A stretch of DNA of 23,395 nt from positions 1 to 23,395 of IMG/VR virus record IMGVR_UViG_3300045950_000106; one strand, 5' to 3'. The stretch comes from a virus. The position numbers and the translations under genes were made by a program. The notes beneath the pieces were generated by a model. It made no database searches. It was not told the origin of the DNA and saw only the letters and a program-made list of their open reading frames with translations. Below, in pieces: positions 8,947-19,994 of this stretch (its first letter is position 1; each line of letters opens with the position of its first letter).

Positions 8947-9511
8947 ACAGACCGCGATTGTGCCGGGAAGCCTATCGGCCATTGCCACGCGTGACGGTGT
9001 GTCGCTGGCGGAGACGTTCGTTTCCGCGGATGCGGTAATCCTGGTGGATACCTCTGGTTCCATGTGCACCCGTGACAGCCGCGGCGGCAAGAGCCGGTAC
9101 GATGTGGCGCTGCAGGAGCTGGCGCAACTGCAGGCACGACTGCCGGGCAAGCTGGCGGTGATTGCCTTTTCATCCAACGTGCTCTTTTGCCCTGGTGGCC
9201 AGCCGCCCCTGCTCAATGGCGGCGGCACGGACATCGCCGGCGCGCTCAAGTTTGCCAAAGTCGCCGACGTTGATGGTATGCGCTTCATCATCATCTCGGA
9301 CGGCGAACCGGATGATGAGCGAAAAGCGCTCGCGGTCGCCAAGACATACAAGAACCGCATCGATACGATCTTTGTGGGACCAGAACACGACTATGCAAGC
9401 GGTCGGACGTTTCTACAACGCCTGGCCTCCGCTTCTGGGGGAAAGCACATCGCCGCCGACCGCGTCCAGGAACTGGCCAGCAAGACCGAGCAGTTGCTGT
9501 TGAGTGCCTGA
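8939..9511 (+). CDS. von Willebrand factor A (VWA) domain protein with intact MIDAS
   Basis: The 190-residue protein is essentially one VWA domain. The metal-ion-dependent adhesion site is complete: DTSGS at residues 37-41, the Thr in GGGTDI (T97) and the Asp in IISDGEPDD (D121). AAGGAGG lies about 7 nt before the ATG at 8939. Intracellular bacterial VWA proteins commonly pair with AAA+ ATPases (MoxR/CoxE type); here the next gene encodes an AAA+/SF3-like ATPase. No signal peptide is present, so it acts in the cytoplasm. A role as assembly or adaptor factor for the replication ATPase is inference. Confidence 0.9.
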   Translation: MAEQTAIVPGSLSAIATRDGVSLAETFVSADAVILVDTSGSMCTRDSRGGKSRYDVALQELAQLQARLPGKLAVIAFSSNVLFCPGGQPPLLNGGGTDIAGALKFAKVADVDGMRFIIISDGEPDDERKALAVAKTYKNRIDTIFVGPEHDYASGRTFLQRLASASGGKHIAADRVQELASKTEQLLLSA

Positions 9512-12674: not shown

Positions 12675-12767
12675 ATGCAGCGCCCGCCGGAACCCGACTG
12701 GTCGGCCTGTCAGGTGATGATGGGCTTCGGTGAGCAGCACAAGTGGTGGAAGAAGGTGACAGCATGA
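12675..12767 (+). CDS. Possible 30-residue protein coupled to the next gene
   Basis: The frame MQRPPEPDWSACQ to GEQHKWWKKVTA runs from ATG 12675 and ends in TGA that overlaps the next ATG as ATGA (12764-12767). The Trp/Lys-rich end does not look random. However, there is no Shine-Dalgarno sequence before 12675, and the internal ATGs at 12717 and 12720 are alternatives. It could be a leader that couples translation to the downstream gene. Confidence 0.3.
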   Translation: MQRPPEPDWSACQVMMGFGEQHKWWKKVTA

Positions 12768-13051
12768 CCGACCGTGCCTGGAAGCGTGCCGAGCGCCAGA
12801 TCGCCAAGCGCCTCGGGGGCAAGCGCACCGGCAACGCGGGGCGGTGGCAGTGCAGGAAGTGCAAGGAGGCCCTGGGCTACGTTACGCCCCAAGGGCGTGT
12901 CTGGCTGGATATGGACCAGTGCAAGGTCATGGAACGGTTCTGGAACCTCATCCGTGTGCAGTGCGTGTGTGGCCAGGTCAATCGCTGGGGGCTGCGCGGT
13001 AGCGACAGAAAACGTGGCCCAGCGCTTGACGACCAGGAAGAGTCAGTATAA
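12764..13051 (+). CDS. Zinc-ribbon protein with resolvase-like N-terminus (95 aa)
   Basis: The ATG at 12764 has GAAGAAGG about 6 nt upstream. The N-terminal 21 residues (DRAWKRAERQIAKRLGGKRT) resemble the first helix of small phage PD-(D/E)XK, Holliday-junction-resolvase-like nucleases. The catalytic Asp/Glu motifs that should follow are absent. Instead there is a zinc ribbon with CRKC (about 32-35) and CVCG (about 71-74). The tail is charged. It may be a DNA-binding remnant or chimera, or the helix likeness may be coincidental. It is the last gene before the late promoter and terminator region, and its 3' end contains the putative promoter. Confidence 0.65.
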   Translation: MTDRAWKRAERQIAKRLGGKRTGNAGRWQCRKCKEALGYVTPQGRVWLDMDQCKVMERFWNLIRVQCVCGQVNRWGLRGSDRKRGPALDDQEESV

Positions 13052-13052
13052 A
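13026..13052 (+). promoter_or_regulatory. Putative sigma70-type promoter upstream of the packaging genes
   Basis: TTGACG (13026-13031) and TATAAA (13047-13052) match the -35 and -10 boxes at 5/6 positions each, but the 15-bp spacer is shorter than the ideal 17. Two tandem AACTGT units follow at once (13051-13062), perhaps a binding site. A transcript would start near 13059 and meet the terminator at 13097-13134 after about 75-80 nt, just before the terminase genes. Confidence 0.4.
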
Positions 13053-13096
13053 CTGTAACTGTACTGAATTGAACGCGCAGAACTGCGGAGTTGAGC

Positions 13097-13138
13097 GCCC
13101 GCAGACTCCCTCATCGAGAGTCTGTGGGCTTTTTGTTT
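13097..13138 (+). terminator. Intrinsic terminator immediately before the terminase small-subunit gene
   Basis: GCCCGCAGACTC (13097-13108) pairs with GAGTCTGTGGGC (13118-13129) in a 12-bp stem with one G-U pair and a 9-nt loop, followed by TTTTTGTTT (13130-13138). This is a textbook rho-independent terminator on the + strand. CTGCGG (13083-13088) can instead pair with CCGCAG (13099-13104) inside the left arm, a mutually exclusive 6-bp antiterminator-like fold. The terminator could end the early transcript or gate the late operon. Confidence 0.85.
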
Positions 13139-13151
13139 GCGGCGGTGTGAT

Positions 13152-13634
13152 GTGGGTGGCTTAAGCGCGAAACGGCGGGCTTTTCTTGAAGCCTACCTCA
13201 GTTGCTGGAATGCAACTGAGGCAGCTCGCCGTACCGGCTATAAGCATCCACATGTCCAGGGGCCGCGGTTGTTAGCAAATGTTAGAGTTCAGGTTGCCAT
13301 CCAGGCCCGCCTGACCGAGATCAAGATGAACGCTGACGAGGTGCTGGTCAGGTTGGCGCAGCAGGCCCGGTCCGAATATTCGGCCTATATCCGCGACGGC
13401 GGCACGATTGATCTGGCGAGGCTGCTTGCTGACGGCAAGGGGCACTTGGTCAAGGGCGCAAAATGGGACAGAAGCGGCAAGCTGGTCGTTGAGTTCTACG
13501 ATGGGCAGCATGCTCTGGAGTTATTGGGCAAGCATCTCGGGCTGTTCAAAGACGGGGTACAGGTGGACATAAGCGATGCTCTGGCAGGCATCCTGGCAAG
13601 ACTCGCTGGCCAAAGCAGTAGAACAGACGACTGA
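13152..13634 (+). CDS. terS: Terminase small subunit
   Basis: The 160-residue protein starts at GTG 13152 by my choice; an upstream TTG at 13137 lies in the terminator T-tract and is unlikely. The N-terminal LSAKRRAFLEAYLSCWNATE and AARRTGYKHPHVQGPRLLAN is the helix-turn-helix of terminase small subunits, which recognises packaging sites and forms a ring that loads DNA for the large subunit. The middle is helical (NADEVLVRLAQQARSE) and the C-terminus (LGKHLGLFKDGVQVDISDAL) is the usual oligomerisation and contact region. It overlaps the large-subunit gene by 59 nt in another frame. Confidence 0.88.
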   Translation: MGGLSAKRRAFLEAYLSCWNATEAARRTGYKHPHVQGPRLLANVRVQVAIQARLTEIKMNADEVLVRLAQQARSEYSAYIRDGGTIDLARLLADGKGHLVKGAKWDRSGKLVVEFYDGQHALELLGKHLGLFKDGVQVDISDALAGILARLAGQSSRTDD

Positions 13635-14865
13635 CGCGGTGGCTTTCGCCCGCGCCTGGCTGCAGTGGGAACCACACGACGGGCAGCAGCGGTGGCTCCT
13701 GGCGCCGGAGCGCAATACGGCTGTGCTGGTGACGGGTCGCCGTTGGGGCAAGAGCGAAGTCGCAGCAATGCAGTCGCTGTATTATGCGGTCTTTCGTTCG
13801 AAGACGCGACAGGGTATCGTAAGCGTGACTCTTGACCAGGCACGTCTCAGCTTCGATGTGGCGCTGATGATGGTGCAACAGCAGCCGTTGCTGGCGGCGC
13901 TGATTGACAAGGTGCGAGATACGCCGTTTCCGCTGCTGCGCTTCAAGACCGGCAGTGAGATCACAGTGCGCACGGCAGCACGTGAGGGCATCTACCTGCG
14001 CGGGCACAAGTTCCACCGCTGTATTGTGGATGAGGCCGACTATCTGTCTGAGAAGTTGATCGACGAAGTTGTGCGCATGGCGCTTGCCGATGTCGGTGGG
14101 CAGCTCGTGCTGATCTCGACGCCCAGGGCGAGGCGGGGGCTGGTGTACCGTGAGCTGCAGCGGGGGCTGGGCGGTAATGACGGTGTCTATGCTCAGCAGG
14201 GCAGTACGTTCGAGAACCCGAACGTCGATCACAAGTATATCGAGGGGTTGCGTGACCGGATGACGGCGACAGCCTGGCAGCGTGAGGTCGAGGGCATCTA
14301 CACCGATGACGACGCTGCAGTGTTTGGCTGGCAGCATATCCAAGCCGCTTACGAAGCGGCAGATTGGACGCTGCCGTTGACGCCGGACCCCAAGTGGCGT
14401 TACGTCTGCGGGGCCGACTTGGCCCAGGCCGAGGACTGGACGGTGATCTACGTTCTGGATGCAACGCAAAAGCCGTATCGCCTTGTCTACTCCGAGCGTT
14501 TCCAACGGCAACCCTGGCCGTTCGTCAGCAGTCGTATCCGCGAGGTGCATCAGCGCTACAATTGCCATCAGACGCTGATTGACGCCACAGGCGTGGGCGC
14601 AGCAGTGCTGGACGAAGTGCGGGACGTTGCTCAAGGTTACGTCTTCACTGGGCGCAGTAAGGTGGACCTGTTGGTGAACCTCCAGGTGGCACTGGAAAAG
14701 CGCGAGGTGCTGTTCCCGTTTGTGCGTGAGCTTGTGGATGAACTACAGAACTATGCCTGGGATGACAAGGCGCTGACTACTGACTGCGTTATGGCTCTGG
14801 CTCTCGTCTGCTGGGCGGCGGGCCCCCGTTCGGGCGTCGAGTACGCGCCGAGCTTGTGGAACTGA
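13576..14865 (+). CDS. terL: Terminase large subunit (packaging ATPase-nuclease)
   Basis: The 429-residue protein has both motor and nuclease parts. Walker A is TGRRWGKSE (about 53-61), Walker B CIVDEAD (149-155) and the coupling motif LISTPRAR (about 179-186). The RNase H-like nuclease has acidic residues D281 (CGADLAQAEDWTV), D336 (LIDATGVG) and D403 (LTTDCVMALAL). It translocates DNA into the prohead at the portal and cuts it. The long overlap with the small-subunit gene is notable. In-frame starts further down are rejected because the N-terminal adenine-binding region (AWLQWEPHDGQQRWLLAP) would be lost. Confidence 0.95.
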   Translation: MLWQASWQDSLAKAVEQTTDAVAFARAWLQWEPHDGQQRWLLAPERNTAVLVTGRRWGKSEVAAMQSLYYAVFRSKTRQGIVSVTLDQARLSFDVALMMVQQQPLLAALIDKVRDTPFPLLRFKTGSEITVRTAAREGIYLRGHKFHRCIVDEADYLSEKLIDEVVRMALADVGGQLVLISTPRARRGLVYRELQRGLGGNDGVYAQQGSTFENPNVDHKYIEGLRDRMTATAWQREVEGIYTDDDAAVFGWQHIQAAYEAADWTLPLTPDPKWRYVCGADLAQAEDWTVIYVLDATQKPYRLVYSERFQRQPWPFVSSRIREVHQRYNCHQTLIDATGVGAAVLDEVRDVAQGYVFTGRSKVDLLVNLQVALEKREVLFPFVRELVDELQNYAWDDKALTTDCVMALALVCWAAGPRSGVEYAPSLWN

Positions 14866-14873
14866 GGAGGCTC

Positions 14874-16199
14874 ATGGTGACTTGGCTACGACAGGGCAAT
14901 ATCATCGAGGACCAGGTCGCCTCGGCGCTGGCTATGGAGGAGAATGAGCGAGCGCTGCGCTTCAAGCGTGCCTGGGAGTGCTATTACGGTCAGTTTGCCA
15001 GGCCACTAAAGGTGCGCAAAGGCCAGCCCGACGACAATGTGATCGTGAACCTGGCGCGGGTGATCGTGGACAAGGGGGTGTCTTTCCTCTTCGGCCAGGA
15101 ACTCGTTTTCGATCTGAACGAGGGTAAGCAGACGCCCGCCGAGGAGTGGCTAGATGGTTGCTGGCAGGCCAACCGGAGGATGACGCTGCTGCAAAAGCTG
15201 GCTCTCAACGGCAGTATCTGTGGGCAGCCCTTCGTCAAGATTGTCCCCGGTCAGCCTTATCCGCGACTCGTCATCCTGGACCCTGCGACGGTGACCGTGC
15301 GCTGGGAGCCCGACGACATCGAGGCTGTGGTCAGCTACCGCATCCAGTACCCGGCGGTGGACCCGCAGACCGGTAAGCCCATTGTGATCCGACAGCTTGT
15401 CGAGCAGGACGGGCAGGTCTGGCACATCACCGACCAGGTGAGTCGCGATGGGGGCATCTGGCAGACGACAGCTGAGGCTGCTTGGCCACACCCCTGGCCG
15501 CCGATTGTCGACTGCCAGAATCTGCCAGCGCCTAACGAGTACTGGGGCATCAGCGATCTGGAAGATGATGTTCTCGGCCTGAACGGCTCGCTCAACTTTG
15601 TGCTCTCGAACCTGGCGCGCATTATCCGCCACCACGCGCACCCGAAAACGTGGGGCAGAGGGTTTACAGCGCAGCAGCTCAGCATTGCGGTTGATGAGAC
15701 GATTGTGCTGCCGGCACCGGAGGCTGAGCTGCACAATCTGGAGATGTTGAGCGACTTGAGCAGCTCGATAGAGCTGTACAAGCGGCTGAAAGAGGCGCTG
15801 CACGAGATCTCGCGCGTCCCAGAGGTGGCCACCGGCAAACTGGAGAGCACCGGCCAGCTTTCGGGCGTGGCACTGGCCATCCTGTATCAGCCGCTATTAG
15901 AGAAGACCGAGACCAAGCGGCGCACGTATGGCGATTTGCTCGTCGAGCTGAACCGGCGGTTGCTGGCTCTGGGCGGTTTTGGCGAGGATAACCGCGCGGT
16001 GCTGCACTGGCCGGAGATGTTGCCGCGCGATCCGCTGCAGGAGCGGCAGGCGGCGGTGCTGGATCAACAGCTTGGCGCTTCACAAGACACACTGCTGGGC
16101 AAGCTGGGCTACGACCCGGATTTGGAGAGGGAGAAGCGGGAGGTCAGGAGTGCAGAGCTTGGCGACCAGGTGCTCGGCGCCTTCGACCGTGGCGAATAG
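14874..16199 (+). CDS. Portal protein, SPP1 gp6 type
   Basis: I chose ATG 14874 because GAGGAGG lies about 5 nt upstream; the in-frame GTG at 14856 has no such site. The 441-residue protein has the N-terminal YYGQFARPLKV, NVIVNLARVIVDKGVSFLFG typical of SPP1-type portals, a central stem/wing region (PNEYWGISDLEDDVLGLNGS) and the clip-to-crown helices (EISRVPEVATGKLESTGQLS, SGVALAILYQPLLEKTETKR). It forms the dodecameric DNA channel at the capsid vertex and follows the terminase gene by 8 bp, the usual order. Confidence 0.92.
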   Translation: MVTWLRQGNIIEDQVASALAMEENERALRFKRAWECYYGQFARPLKVRKGQPDDNVIVNLARVIVDKGVSFLFGQELVFDLNEGKQTPAEEWLDGCWQANRRMTLLQKLALNGSICGQPFVKIVPGQPYPRLVILDPATVTVRWEPDDIEAVVSYRIQYPAVDPQTGKPIVIRQLVEQDGQVWHITDQVSRDGGIWQTTAEAAWPHPWPPIVDCQNLPAPNEYWGISDLEDDVLGLNGSLNFVLSNLARIIRHHAHPKTWGRGFTAQQLSIAVDETIVLPAPEAELHNLEMLSDLSSSIELYKRLKEALHEISRVPEVATGKLESTGQLSGVALAILYQPLLEKTETKRRTYGDLLVELNRRLLALGGFGEDNRAVLHWPEMLPRDPLQERQAAVLDQQLGASQDTLLGKLGYDPDLEREKREVRSAELGDQVLGAFDRGE

Positions 16200-16353
16200 T
16201 CCTGCCGTCGCCTGGCTGCTGCACTTGCTGGAAGAGCACGGCCCCGGCGAGTATATCGTGCAGGTGAAAGCAGATGGGCGCATGATCGTGAAGCGCCCGC
16301 GGCCGCCATTGCGTTTCGAGTGGGAGCCACCTTGCCATGCCGGAGCCCGGTGA
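16189..16353 (+). CDS. Small protein between portal and MuF genes (54 aa)
   Basis: GTG 16189 overlaps the portal stop and the frame ends at TGA 16351-16353, 17 nt into the next gene. The product (LLHLLEEHGPGEYIVQVKAD, then GRMIVKRPRPPLRFEW) starts with an amphipathic helix followed by a small beta hairpin and a Pro-rich basic end. Neither other frame encodes anything across this 137-bp gap, which supports the call. The ribosome-binding site is weak, so expression is probably coupled to the portal gene. No family recognised. Confidence 0.6.
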   Translation: MANSPAVAWLLHLLEEHGPGEYIVQVKADGRMIVKRPRPPLRFEWEPPCHAGAR

Positions 16354-17815
16354 CATCTATGCAGTTGCGGAGCGCTTCCGGCGTGAGCTGTTGCGGTGCG
16401 AGCGGGCCACAACCTCGGAGATGGTACGCGCCTATAGCGAGAGCTGGAAGCGTATCAAGGTGCAGATTGACAAACTGACCCACCGATGGTGGGAAGCGGT
16501 GCAGGCCGGCGAGAAGCCTGCGGCGTCGTGGCCTTTCGAGTTTGAGCGGCTGCAGATGCTGCAGCGGCAGGTCGAGGCTGAGATTGGCCGGTTTGCCCGC
16601 TTTGCCGAGACACGGATCGCGGCGGAGCAGTGGGAAGCAGTGCGGGCGGCTGCGCGCTATGCCGAGCAGATGGTCGATGCGGCTATGCCGCCTGGCCTGG
16701 CTTACCGATGGGACCGGCTGCCGGTGGAGGCTGTCGAGGACCTGGCGGGTTTTACCCAGTCTGGCTCACCACTGCGCACTCTGCTTGATAGGCTGGGGCC
16801 GGCGGCGAGCGAGAGCATTCGGAAGGCGCTGATTTCGGGTCTGGCTCTAGGCAAAAACCCCCGCGAGATCGCGCGCCAGGCGCGGGCGGCACTGGGTGGC
16901 AACCTGGTGCGGGCACTGACGATCAGCCGCACGGAGACACTGCGAGCGTGCCGCGAGGCCACGCGACGCAACTATCAGGCAAATAACGATGTGGTCAAGG
17001 GGTGGGTGTGGCATGCGGCGTGTGACCCGAGGACCTGCGTTATGTGCTACGCGATGCACGGCACAAAGCACAGCCTGGAGGAGGTCCTGGATGATCATCC
17101 CAACGGCCGCTGTGCCATGTTGCCCGAGACCAAAAGCTGGGACGAGCTGGGCTTTGAGGGGGTGCAGGAGACACGAGCCGGGGTGGAGACGGGCGAGTTG
17201 CTGTTCGCCAAGCTCACGGAGGAGCAGCAGCGGCAGGTGCTGGGCAACGCGGGATACGAGGCGTACAAAGCGGGCGCGGTGAAGCTGTCGGACTTTGTGG
17301 GCCGGAAACAGAGCAGCTCCTGGGGCACAACGCGGTACGCGAGGAGTCTAAGGGAGATACTGGGGGCGAGTGAGGCGAGGAAGTGGCAAGAGGCGGCTGC
17401 CCAGGCGCACCGTGAAGCATTGCGGGGTGTGCCCAAGACACCGCTGAAGACACCGAATCCTAGACATAGGCTAGAGAAAGTGCTACCACGTTCGCCAGCC
17501 AAGCCCACCAATACTGTTGTGGAATCGTGGGATGTGGTACAACAGGATATTGCAGCGATCAATCGGGGTGAGGGAGAACGTCAGGGCAACTGCTGGGCTA
17601 TCAATGGGCGAACGTATGGCGTGGAGAAGGGTGGGCGCTGTTATCCGATTTCCGGGCCAGGGTTCCACGTGCTGGACCGCGTTGCCTACAAGGCACTTGG
17701 GATGTATAATAAGTATGGGCTGACGAGTGAGGCTGAGAGAATGCTTGACCGTTGGGATTGCCCGCAGGAGGCGCGACGCGTTGCACGTGCTGCGTATGAG
17801 GCGGTGAAGGGATGA
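16337..17815 (+). CDS. MuF-type minor head protein with distinct C-terminal (toxin-like?) domain
   Basis: Residues about 160-262 are the phage Mu F / SPP1 gp7 domain: SGLALGKNPREIARQARAAL, ISRTETLRACREATRRNY, then CDPRTCVMCYAMHG and DDHPNGRC, a Cys/His site. This protein is injected or packaged as a minor head component. A spacer (about 285-345) typical of this family follows, then a Pro/Lys/Arg linker (about 364-392). The last domain (about 395-492: INRGEGERQGNCWAINGRTY, GGRCYPISGPGFHVLDRVAY, YNKYGLTSEAERML) is separate. Known MuF proteins of temperate phages carry variable C-terminal toxins; I do not recognise this one. The DNA for it is about 54% GC (163/300 over 17461-17760), against 46/60 at 16861-16920. 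A small acidic protein gene overlaps its stop. Confidence 0.88.
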   Translation: MPEPGDIYAVAERFRRELLRCERATTSEMVRAYSESWKRIKVQIDKLTHRWWEAVQAGEKPAASWPFEFERLQMLQRQVEAEIGRFARFAETRIAAEQWEAVRAAARYAEQMVDAAMPPGLAYRWDRLPVEAVEDLAGFTQSGSPLRTLLDRLGPAASESIRKALISGLALGKNPREIARQARAALGGNLVRALTISRTETLRACREATRRNYQANNDVVKGWVWHAACDPRTCVMCYAMHGTKHSLEEVLDDHPNGRCAMLPETKSWDELGFEGVQETRAGVETGELLFAKLTEEQQRQVLGNAGYEAYKAGAVKLSDFVGRKQSSSWGTTRYARSLREILGASEARKWQEAAAQAHREALRGVPKTPLKTPNPRHRLEKVLPRSPAKPTNTVVESWDVVQQDIAAINRGEGERQGNCWAINGRTYGVEKGGRCYPISGPGFHVLDRVAYKALGMYNKYGLTSEAERMLDRWDCPQEARRVARAAYEAVKG

Positions 17816-18246
17816 TGTGGGAAGAGCTCTATCTAGGCCGGCTGGCTGGCATTGACGAAATCCAGATAGCGCTGGGCAAGGCGTTGGGCATTGCCCCGGG
17901 TACAATCAGGGTGGTGGATGATCTTGCGGAGGCGCCACTGCCGCATGATCCCGCAACGCGCTTGCTGGTGGAGCGATACGTCTATCCCGGTGAGTTTCCA
18001 ATGCGACTCTCCTGCAATGTGTTTGACGTGCCGGCTGTCGATGCATTGACGGTAGTACGCAAGGTATGCACTGCGCTGCAAACAACGTGCCTGATTGGCG
18101 ATGACTCGCCGGATGACTCGGTTTGGTTGCGCGTGGCGCTCGACGGCACCGTCGAGCGCGTACTGGTGGACGATGAGGCGCTCGAGCGAGATGAATTGAG
18201 GGTAGCTCAGGTGCTCGATGTTGAGCGCGCCAGGACGGCTGCCTGA
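17812..18246 (+). CDS. Small acidic protein after MuF, candidate immunity protein
   Basis: ATG 17812 overlaps the MuF stop as ATGATG (4-nt overlap). The 144-residue protein has 26 Asp/Glu against 14 Lys/Arg and contains no signal or membrane segment (for example VYPGEFPMRLSCNVF, GDDSPDDSVWLRVALDGTVE). It sits between the MuF and scaffold genes, where many phages have nothing or a small head protein. Being directly coupled to a MuF with a toxin-like tail, it is a good candidate for a cognate immunity protein; phage immunity proteins are often small and acidic. A structural role is the alternative. I recognise no family. It is the last gene before a 267-bp non-coding stretch. Confidence 0.6.
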   Translation: MMWEELYLGRLAGIDEIQIALGKALGIAPGTIRVVDDLAEAPLPHDPATRLLVERYVYPGEFPMRLSCNVFDVPAVDALTVVRKVCTALQTTCLIGDDSPDDSVWLRVALDGTVERVLVDDEALERDELRVAQVLDVERARTAA

Positions 18247-18254
18247 AGGGGCAA

Positions 18255-18273
18255 GGGCGGGGTCTCCCCGCCC
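18255..18273 (+). terminator. GC-rich 8-bp hairpin after the acidic-protein gene
   Basis: GGGCGGGG (18255-18262) and CCCCGCCC (18266-18273) form a perfect stem with a 3-nt TCT loop, 9 bp after the stop. No T-run follows. It resembles the GGCGGG-gagat-CCCGCC palindrome at 18396-18412, and both resemble a dispersed host-type repeat, so it may be a repeat unit as well as an mRNA-end hairpin. Confidence 0.45.
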
Positions 18274-18279
18274 CTGCGC

Positions 18280-18308
18280 TTGACCACATTTCCAAGTTGT
18301 TGTAGAAT
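18280..18308 (+). promoter_or_regulatory. Strong sigma70-type promoter before the scaffold and coat genes
   Basis: TTGACC (18280-18285) and TAGAAT (18303-18308) each match the consensus at 5/6, with an exact 17-bp spacer. The spacer and downstream sequence are AT-richer than the surroundings. Transcription would start near 18315 and run into the terminator hairpin at 18347-18386 about 75 nt later, before the scaffold gene at 18514. Confidence 0.65.
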
Positions 18309-18346
18309 ACAGCCAACAGAATAACCAACCCCAGAGCGTGTAGCAG

Positions 18347-18390
18347 AGGGGCATTTGTCGGAGAAATCCGGCGGGTGCCCCTTTTTGTTT
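18347..18390 (+). terminator. Intrinsic terminator in the leader of the scaffold/coat operon
   Basis: AGGGGCA (18347-18353) pairs with TGCCCCT (18376-18382), followed by TTTTT to 18386, G and TTT. Inside the loop a second small stem CGGA/TCCG (18359-18362, 18367-18370) closes a GAAA tetraloop, so the hairpin is a compact stacked structure. It ends in the same CTTTTTGTTT as the terminator before the terminase genes. Confidence 0.75.
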
Positions 18391-18470
18391 TCTCAGGCGG
18401 GGAGATCCCGCCCCTACTTGGGCGAGGGAGAGGCCCCTCACCCCAACCCTCTCCCCCTGGGAGAGGGGGA
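18391..18470 (+). repeat. Host-type interspersed palindromic repeats in the non-coding gap
   Basis: Two palindromes lie side by side: GGCGGG/CCCGCC (18396-18401, 18407-18412) and CCCTCTCCC/GGGAGAGGG (18447-18455, 18459-18467). The second is within CCCCTCACCCCAACCCTCTC (18434-18453). Both resemble short sequences dispersed in intergenic DNA of many environmental bacterial chromosomes, whose mistranslation (PHPNPLPLGEG) is a well-known annotation artefact. With the hairpin at 18255 and the promoter and terminator they fill the gap from 18247 to 18513, which has no credible ORF. Confidence 0.7.
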
Positions 18471-18513
18471 TGTTTACACCACGGCGGCGGTAACAGCCGG
18501 GAGGATGTTCACA

Positions 18514-19119
18514 ATGGCAGATCAGAACCCACAACAGACGAACCAGGCCAACGGGGCACAGGCCCCGGACCCCACCGCTCAGCAGGGCGGGAAAACGTTC
18601 ACGCAAGAGCAGCTCGACGTCATCATCGCGGACCGGCTGCAGCGCGAGCGGGGCAAGTATGCGGACTATGAGGAGCTGAAGAAGGCCAAGACCGAGCTGG
18701 ATACGCTCAAGCAGGGCCAGCTCAGCGAGGCCCAGAAGCTCCAGCAGCGGGCTGAGACGGCTGAGGCGGAAGCCAAGACGGCCAGGGAGCAGATCAGGGC
18801 GGCCAATCTACGCATGGCCATTGAGCGGGAGGCGCGCAAGTTGGCCATCGTGGACGAAGATGCCGCTTTCCGGCTGCTCGATCTGGCGGCCGTGCAGTAC
18901 GACGCGGCCAGCACGCCCACCAATATCGAGCCCCTGCTGCGTGCCCTGGTGGCCAAGCGCCCCTACTTGGTGGGCCAGGCAGGCGGCAACAGTGGCTCGC
19001 TGACGAACCCGGCGCGTGGCGGCAACGCCAAGCTGACGCTGGACGACATTCGCAAGATGGGCCCCGAGGAGATCAACCGTCGCTGGGACGAAGTGCAGCG
19101 GGTGATGGCGGGGCAGTAA
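18514..19119 (+). CDS. Scaffolding protein (capsid assembly)
   Basis: I chose ATG 18514 (MADQNPQQTN) because GGGAGG lies about 9 nt upstream. In-frame starts further up read through the repeat and terminator and are artefacts. The 201-residue protein has a Gln/Asn-rich N-terminus, the scaffold signature FTQEQLDVIIADRLQRERGK (about 29-48), a long coiled coil (about 50-110) and a C-terminal helix (LTLDDIRKMGPEEINRRWDE) of the type that docks on the coat protein. This matches DUF4355/GP20-like scaffolds, which shape the prohead and are then removed. It directly precedes the coat gene. Confidence 0.85.
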   Translation: MADQNPQQTNQANGAQAPDPTAQQGGKTFTQEQLDVIIADRLQRERGKYADYEELKKAKTELDTLKQGQLSEAQKLQQRAETAEAEAKTAREQIRAANLRMAIEREARKLAIVDEDAAFRLLDLAAVQYDAASTPTNIEPLLRALVAKRPYLVGQAGGNSGSLTNPARGGNAKLTLDDIRKMGPEEINRRWDEVQRVMAGQ

Positions 19120-19145: not shown

Positions 19146-19994
19146 ATGGCACTGGAGAACTTTATTCCAACTATCTGGAGCGCGCGGCTCCTGGAGAACC
19201 TGCAAAAGGCGCTGGTCTATGGCCAGGCCGGGATCGTCAACCGCGACTATGAGGGCGAGATCCGCGATGTGGGCGACACGGTGCGGATCAATGCTATTGG
19301 CGCGGTGACGGTGTCTGACTATACCAAGAATACGGATATCAATGCGCCGGAGACGCTGCAGGATGCGAGTTTGCTGCTGCGTATCGAGAAAGCGAAGTAT
19401 TTCAACTTTGCCGTAGACGACGTGGATCGTGTGCAGCAGAAGCCGAAGGTGATGGACGCTGCAATGCGCGAGTCGGCTTATGCCCTTCGGGATGTGGCCG
19501 ACCAGTATATTGCCGCGCAGATGGTGGCCGGGGCCGGCGTCAAGTGGGGTACGGACGCCAGCCCGAAGGTGCTCGACACGGCGGTCAAGGCGTACGAGCT
19601 GCTGGTCGATGTCGGCATCGAGTTAGACAAGGTGAATGTGCCGCGGGCCGGGCGGTGGGCGGTGGTGCCGCCCTGGGTTTACGGTCTCTTCCTTAAGGAT
19701 GACCGCTTTGTCAAGGCGGGCACGACCCGGAGCGACCAGGTGCTTGCTAATGGCGAGATGGGCCAGGCGGCCGGGTTCACGATCTTGGAGTCCAACAACG
19801 TGCCGGTCTCCAGCAACAAGTACCGGGTGTTGGCCGGTGTACCGCAGGCGTGCTCATATGCCGAGCAAGTCCTCAAGGTCGAGGCGTATCGGCCGGAGCG
19901 GCGCTTTGCCGATGCCGTGAAGGGCCTGCATGTGTATGGCGCAAAGGTTGTGCGCTCGCAAGCGCTGTGCCTGGCGATCTGTAGCGTGAGTTAA
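19146..19994 (+). CDS. Major capsid (coat) protein, P22 coat/HK97-fold type
   Basis: The 282-residue protein starts MALENFIPTIWSARLLENLQ, continues with VNRDYEGEIRDVGDTVRI and YTKNTDI, then has FNFAVDDVDRVQQKPKVMDA and ALRDVADQYIA and the P-domain-like GRWAVVPPWVYGLFLKDDRF. These blocks are typical of P22-coat-like capsid proteins in siphoviruses. AAGGAG lies about 7 nt upstream. It forms the icosahedral shell around the scaffold encoded just before it. No protease gene or pro-domain is visible, in line with scaffold-dependent assembly without a maturation protease. Confidence 0.88.
   Translation: MALENFIPTIWSARLLENLQKALVYGQAGIVNRDYEGEIRDVGDTVRINAIGAVTVSDYTKNTDINAPETLQDASLLLRIEKAKYFNFAVDDVDRVQQKPKVMDAAMRESAYALRDVADQYIAAQMVAGAGVKWGTDASPKVLDTAVKAYELLVDVGIELDKVNVPRAGRWAVVPPWVYGLFLKDDRFVKAGTTRSDQVLANGEMGQAAGFTILESNNVPVSSNKYRVLAGVPQACSYAEQVLKVEAYRPERRFADAVKGLHVYGAKVVRSQALCLAICSVS

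Follow-up and report, generated by a model that had tools for sequence, protein, structure and literature searches.

What purpose does a promoter serve in front of phage capsid genes when a strong terminator follows it immediately? This question is raised by a short region of the window, an IMG/VR virus record of 23,395 bases. The right half of the window is a morphogenesis cluster. Its genes follow the order terminase small subunit (TerS), terminase large subunit (TerL), portal, MuF-like protein, an unassigned ORF, scaffold and major capsid protein:

13137-13634, plus strand: terminase small subunit (PF03592, phrog_51), start codon TTG at 13137 or GTG at 13152
13576-14865, plus strand: terminase large subunit (PF17289, phrog_2)
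14856-16199, plus strand: portal protein (PF05133, phrog_64)
16337-17815, plus strand: Mu gpF-like head morphogenesis protein (MuF; PF04233)
17812-18246, plus strand: unassigned ORF between MuF and W18; ORFs of about 100 aa occupy the same place in the related loci L029, L030, L031 and L042, which does not imply homology
18514-19119, plus strand: capsid scaffold, the first gene 3′ of W18 (PF06810, phrog_2303)
19146-19994, plus strand: major capsid protein (phrog_267, E 4e-74; PF25209)

No DNA similarity of the window to named phages was found. Named phages possess only distant relatives of its portal and coat proteins, so that no annotated genome was of help.

The arrangement in question occurs twice in the cluster. 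The cassette W18 (18280-18390) precedes the scaffold and coat genes, and the cassette W13 (13026-13138) precedes TerS. They consist of the following elements:

13026-13054, plus strand: W13 promoter, TTGACG-17-TAAACT (sequence scan)
13055-13096, plus strand: W13 leader, with a CTGAAT box at 13064-13069 (sequence)
13097-13138, plus strand: W13 intrinsic terminator (fold energy)
18280-18308, plus strand: W18 promoter, TTGACC-17-TAGAAT (sequence; spacer and −10 region kept in L030)
18309-18345, plus strand: W18 start-site region and leader, with a CAGAATA box at 18317-18323 (sequence)
18346-18390, plus strand: W18 intrinsic terminator, hairpin and T-tract (fold energy, shuffles, orthologous L030 hairpin)

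The −35 (TTGACC, 18280-18285) and −10 (TAGAAT, 18303-18308) hexamers of W18 are separated by a spacer of 17 nt and match the consensus at 10 of 12 positions. Transcription is likely to start at about position 18315, 7 nt past the −10, which would give a leader of about 30 nt and an RNA of about 70-75 nt. The terminator follows the promoter at a distance of about 40 nt. Its hairpin (18346-18383) has 17 pairs and a GAAA tetraloop and is followed by TTTGTTTT. With two flanking nucleotides included, its folding energy is −31.7 kcal/mol (z = −6.9), and none of 200 shuffled sequences is equally stable. No other terminator-like site in the 20 kb scanned is as strong. The hairpin of W13 (13097-13129) has a folding energy of −22.6 kcal/mol. 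Both cassettes end in CTTTTTGTTT, which upholds the common terminal sequence already reported for them, and the window's own record contains a single copy of W18. As a plain operon boundary, a promoter leading straight into a strong terminator would be useless. Its purpose must therefore be either a controlled readthrough or the short RNA itself.

The promoter of W18 alone cannot settle the matter. Six promoters like it were seen in the 20 kb scanned against 3.9 expected, which is not rarer than chance, and comparison with relatives was therefore needed to decide. Relatives were fetched with the coat, TerL and portal proteins, and with the scaffold stretch against the GTDB genomes, where the latter matched a Chloroflexi MAG (G001) and the bin HRbin27. 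A strict scan covered 164 non-redundant loci (1.6 Mb), chosen by protein and not by motif. Strict cassettes were distributed 27:1 between the gene strand and the other strand. Sixteen of the 27 on the gene strand fall in the TerS or MuF-scaffold borders, which account for 6% of the bases scanned (p = 2e-13), and several of those counted outside are actually located at these borders and were missed because the neighbouring gene was not recognised. The same conclusion was reached with a relaxed scan of 158 related loci, in which a weaker −35 was allowed: 36 promoter-terminator pairs on the gene strand lie in the borders (7% of bases) versus 49 elsewhere (p = 2e-19).

The two conserved borders that carry the cassettes are primase/TerS and MuF/scaffold-coat. 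Both are in view in 25 loci, or slightly fewer if counted independently, since L004 and L248 are one contig; strong terminators are present at both borders in 14 of them, at one in five and at neither in six. The original prediction had proposed a search for the cassette at the same border in close relatives, and it is present there in L030, L031, L002, L029, L042 and L043. The closest orthologue of W18 is the scaffold cassette of L030 (promoter 9334-9363), where AGTTGTTGTAGAATACnGCCAACAGAATA, comprising the spacer and −10 region, is conserved and the leader has diverged. In the orthologous hairpin of L030 (9382-9421) an outer stem pair has changed from G-C to A-U, a compensatory exchange. An exact scan of IMG/VR for the W18 promoter core GTAGAATACnGCCAACAGAA returned the L030 contig only. 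In L025 (6390-6445 and 10628-10680), and also in L027, both borders carry one repeated palindrome, GCTGATTCTGGGGCTGGTCnGAAnnGGCCGGCCCCTGCTGATTCC, in place of the usual terminators.

These data bear on the simplest explanation, namely that W18 matches the consensus by chance or arose as a by-product of host-type repeats, which are present on both sides of it. The chance-level frequency of the promoter and the presence of the repeats would fit such an origin, but the same cassette is found without repeats in L030 and other loci, and the decisive evidence is comparative: the strand bias and the border enrichment across related loci make this explanation extremely improbable. Together with the consensus match and the hairpin stability, the enrichment also bears out the near-consensus promoter and GAAA-loop terminator proposed for 18280-18390. 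As judged from the comparison of sequences, W18 is a real, conserved late-gene control cassette that recurs at two fixed borders.

The leaders were compared by local alignment in 14 phages. In this list, which was drawn up after inspection of the leaders and in which the hairpin starts of L029T and L248T were set by hand, the score of same-phage pairs was 22.0 versus 12.2 for different-phage pairs (permutation p = 5e-5). The p value was still 5e-5 when a related group was reduced to one. The leader motif varies from phage to phage (GCGCGGCUnnnCUGCCGCC; GCGGUAUU..UUUCCGCC; CUCACGAGG..ACCCGGAG; UCGGAGUUUACCGCCCGG). Within a phage it recurs: L042 has GCGCGGC..CUGCCGCC in two cassettes, L231, L238 and L241 have [GA]CGGUAUU..GUUUCCGCC in two cassettes each, L249 and L247 have UCGGAGUUUACCGCCCGG in two cassettes each, L254 has CUCACGAGGAAUAAGCACCCGGAG in two cassettes, and GCGCGRCU is common to three cassettes of L029. 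The third cassette of L029 (1685-1779), with the same leader motif (GCGCGACUAUUCUGUCGCC), is located 5′ of a second, short stretch that matches the N-terminus of TerL (2326-2439). The two leaders show no convincing likeness in L030, L031, L032 and L043, nor are they alike in the closest relatives of the window.

The same-phage likeness supports one phage-encoded, leader-specific control per phage. A single control shared by both cassettes of the window had been suggested in the original prediction. Across the family the suggestion is upheld by the phage-specific leader motif, but it does not carry over to the pair W13 and W18 itself, whose leaders show no likeness in the alignment test (p = 0.79) and whose promoters, like their spacers, are not significantly alike (p about 0.09). 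The W13 leader is similar to the scaffold leader of L249 (CGGAGUU..CGCCCG, score 22), and its CGGAGTTGAGCGCCCG resembles the leader motif of L249 and L247. The W18 leader resembles the terminase leader of L030 (GAGCGUGU..GGGGC, score 16).

Within a phage, the shared motif often sits beside the 5′ arm of the terminator. In several leader families it takes the form of a short G+C hairpin, the 3′ side of which overlaps or abuts this arm. Pairing between leader and terminator arm is modestly above shuffled sequences (Fisher 4e-4 over 14 leaders that are non-independent, as are the per-member p values, because several leader families are related by descent). The individual value is p = 0.21 for W18 and p = 0.07 for W13, where CTGCGG in the leader is able to pair with CCGCAG in the terminator 5′ arm. 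Antiterminator pairing was dropped as a universal rule, since the statistics are modest.

The best-sampled leader family is that with GCGCGRCU. A scan with GCGCGGCTnnnCTGCCGCC identified true cassettes in IMG/VR as well as in the class to which the Chloroflexi MAG belongs. In this class two cassettes were found in G001, two in G009 and six in G022, all of which have a terminator after them, and the reversed-pattern control gave 2 matches in the 29 genomes. Most of the 66 matches to GCGCGGCTnnnCTGCCGCC in IMG/VR were rejected as chance occurrences in coding sequence that lack a terminator. The motif scan in the class of G002 gave 19 matches versus about 29 for reversed-pattern controls, which is background, L043 itself excepted. 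Several copies in G022 and G009 lie between MuF remnants and small-ORF/scaffold genes. The six cassettes of G022 (L118, L121-L125) are near-identical and have one motif, and several are located beside truncated MuF genes; they are repeated prophage remnants, in which the cassette seems to be better preserved than the genes. The pattern GCGCGRCUnnnCUGYCGCC is kept in 18 distinct cassettes, and the inner terminator stem varies. Seven double-change cells demonstrate covariation of the terminator stem in these 18 cassettes, a value reached by none of 500 shuffles. For the competing leader hairpin GCGGC/GCCGC, just one double change was seen among the 18 sequences.

If the short RNA were the product, the cassettes would be small-RNA genes. 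The terminated RNA of about 70-75 nt would then act on phage or host mRNA targets, and the site ahead of the late operons would be a convenient intergenic niche. A promoter, a short RNA and a strong terminator do form a complete gene-like unit, and a motif common to the copies in one phage is also expected of paralogous small RNAs. The location of the cassettes argues against this explanation: they are tied to two gene borders and in many loci are separated from the next gene by 8-53 nt. Furthermore, no promoter-like site was detected in the 20-kb window scan between the W18 terminator and the scaffold gene, which leaves the capsid block without one past the terminator, and the most conserved part of the leader abuts or overlaps the terminator arm and is not a free seed. 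We consider small-RNA genes an unlikely explanation, albeit one to be taken seriously.

Slightly lower is the probability that we assign to a factor-independent attenuator or a constitutive partial terminator. Its readthrough would be constant or would depend on temperature, ribosomes or the speed of the polymerase, and its role would be limited to tuning capsid dosage or insulating the gene blocks. The variable strength of the terminators among cassettes, their absence from both borders in six of the 25 loci and the lack of a clear element common to the W13 and W18 leaders are in line with such a device. Dosage tuning, in contrast, needs no phage-specific motif matched between two distant cassettes, and translation-coupled attenuation is unlikely because ATG is absent from both leaders of the window.

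Controlled readthrough by a common factor is favoured by the linkage to late-gene borders and by the leaders matched within a phage. We propose that the cassettes are late-gene switches under antitermination, with a logic like that of lambda Q or AlpA, and regard this as on balance probable. Antitermination itself, including processive antitermination, is what we infer. By default, the promoter would yield only the RNA of about 70-75 nt, and transcription that enters W18 from the packaging block 5′ of it would likewise end at its terminator. At a late stage of infection, RNA polymerase would be allowed to pass by a phage-encoded factor recognising the leader or the promoter of both cassettes, and the packaging and capsid genes would be switched on together. 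The factor may hold a hairpin that competes with the terminator, or it may load onto the polymerase in the manner of Q and AlpA.

Lambdoid Q systems (pR′/tR′; phage 21 Q) similarly have a late promoter followed by an immediate intrinsic terminator, an early end by default and virion genes 3′ of it. They differ from the present cassettes, of which there are two or more per phage, each before a structural block and each with a conserved motif in the leader, next to the terminator. The action of Q depends on a DNA site located between the −35 and −10 and on a −10-like element within the initial transcribed region (PMC6606751). A pause-like element is present there in W18 (CAGAAT, 18317-18322) and absent in W13. 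In its strict form it is not enriched, with 7 of 32 cassettes versus 59 of 285 other predicted promoters. The motif GAATA occurs 8-12 nt past the −10 in 6 of 32 cassettes versus 1 of 285 other predicted promoters, both it and GCGCGGCU having been picked after inspection. The scan of the window ORFs, many of which are unnamed, revealed no antiterminator, Q-like or otherwise; some small ORFs lay outside the scan, and the record is possibly a fragment. As neither a Q-like protein nor an enrichment of the strict pause element was found, membership in the lambdoid Q system is not claimed.

In the case of AlpA of Pseudomonas aeruginosa, the terminator begins 54 nt past the start site, and the factor acts at more than one promoter and lets polymerase pass (PMC7969949). 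The GnTAGC found between the −35 and −10 in cassettes of L029, G001, G009 and G022, and absent from the window, occupies the place of the AlpA element. AlpA is nevertheless a host-encoded cell-death regulator with an element in promoter DNA, whereas the clearest within-phage sharing here is in the leader, and no homologue of AlpA turned up among the matches of the ORFs scanned. A literature search found Q and AlpA and nothing on such cassettes in this phage group. In the HK022 put system, structured RNA at the transcript start can itself modify polymerase without a phage protein, and the leaders might conceivably act in this way. The present motif, unlike put, abuts the terminator; it is also very short, and each phage has a different one. 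In LicT/SacY-type antitermination, a short hairpin with its 3′ side overlapping the terminator 5′ arm is stabilised by a protein. Here the hairpin is much shorter, its covariation is a single event, and no LicT/SacY-type regulator was found. The alternative hairpin that overlaps the terminator in a number of leader families would also suit a host-type ligand- or protein-binding RNA switch, such as a riboswitch or a ribosomal-protein-leader-like element, in place of phage antitermination. This is very unlikely: neither the window nor any of 11 related loci has a match to an Rfam family (release 15) at its gathering threshold, and the motif changes between phages, unlike a host ligand sensor.

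A candidate for the trans-acting factor of the proposed antitermination is encoded beside the terminase cassette:

12764-13051 (region 12743-13051), plus strand: small protein with two CxC/CxxC zinc-ribbon knuckles (sequence; candidate factor)

Small ORFs with two CxxC motifs are present at 21 of 38 terminase borders versus 73 of 3,292 small ORFs overall. The protein of the window has no Pfam family above the cut-off and no match to PF10122 (Mu Com). Among 14 zinc-ribbon homologues, three match PF10122 with E of at least 0.0033 (one score seen was 16.3 bits, below the cut-off of 22.9) and three match phrog_6417, 'translational regulator' (best E 7e-4), so that the likeness to Mu Com is sub-threshold. 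Since zinc-ribbon ORFs are also found in L032 and L036, where no strict cassette was detected, the link to the cassettes is a lead only and the assignment as factor is speculative. As a tentative and rather doubtful extension, the cassettes might represent a new antitermination class with a lineage-specific leader code. One short leader RNA motif, fused to the terminator, would be common to at least two cassettes and would be recognised by a small factor dedicated to it, which might be the zinc-ribbon protein. The packaging and capsid operons would be licensed together, with the code diverging between lineages. Late-gene control beyond model phages is mostly unknown, and the cassettes offer a testable handle on the timing of virion production in uncultured phages, some of them from Chloroflexota. 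An antitermination factor of a new kind may come out of their study, as may orthogonal leader/factor pairs.

The repeats around W18 provide a hint to the host. Between the W18 terminator and the scaffold gene (18391-18480) lies a host-type interspersed repeat (CCCCTCACCCCAACCCTCTCCCCC, also GGCGGGGAGATCCCGCCCC), and just 5′ of the W18 −35 (18247-18277) a strong G+C palindrome (GGGCGGGGTCTCCCCGCCC) of the same repeat type, without a T-tract. Of 400 genomes from the phylum to which the Chloroflexi MAG belongs, 17 contain the repeat 24-mer, in up to 18 copies per genome, and the reversed control gave none. This indicates that the host probably belongs to the Chloroflexota. Exact tandem repeats are present at 1-60 and 1081-1118 of the window, with units of GCCAACCTGTCCGGG, which encode pentapeptide repeats (ANLSG) truncated at the start of the window, and of GTGGTGAGGCC, respectively.
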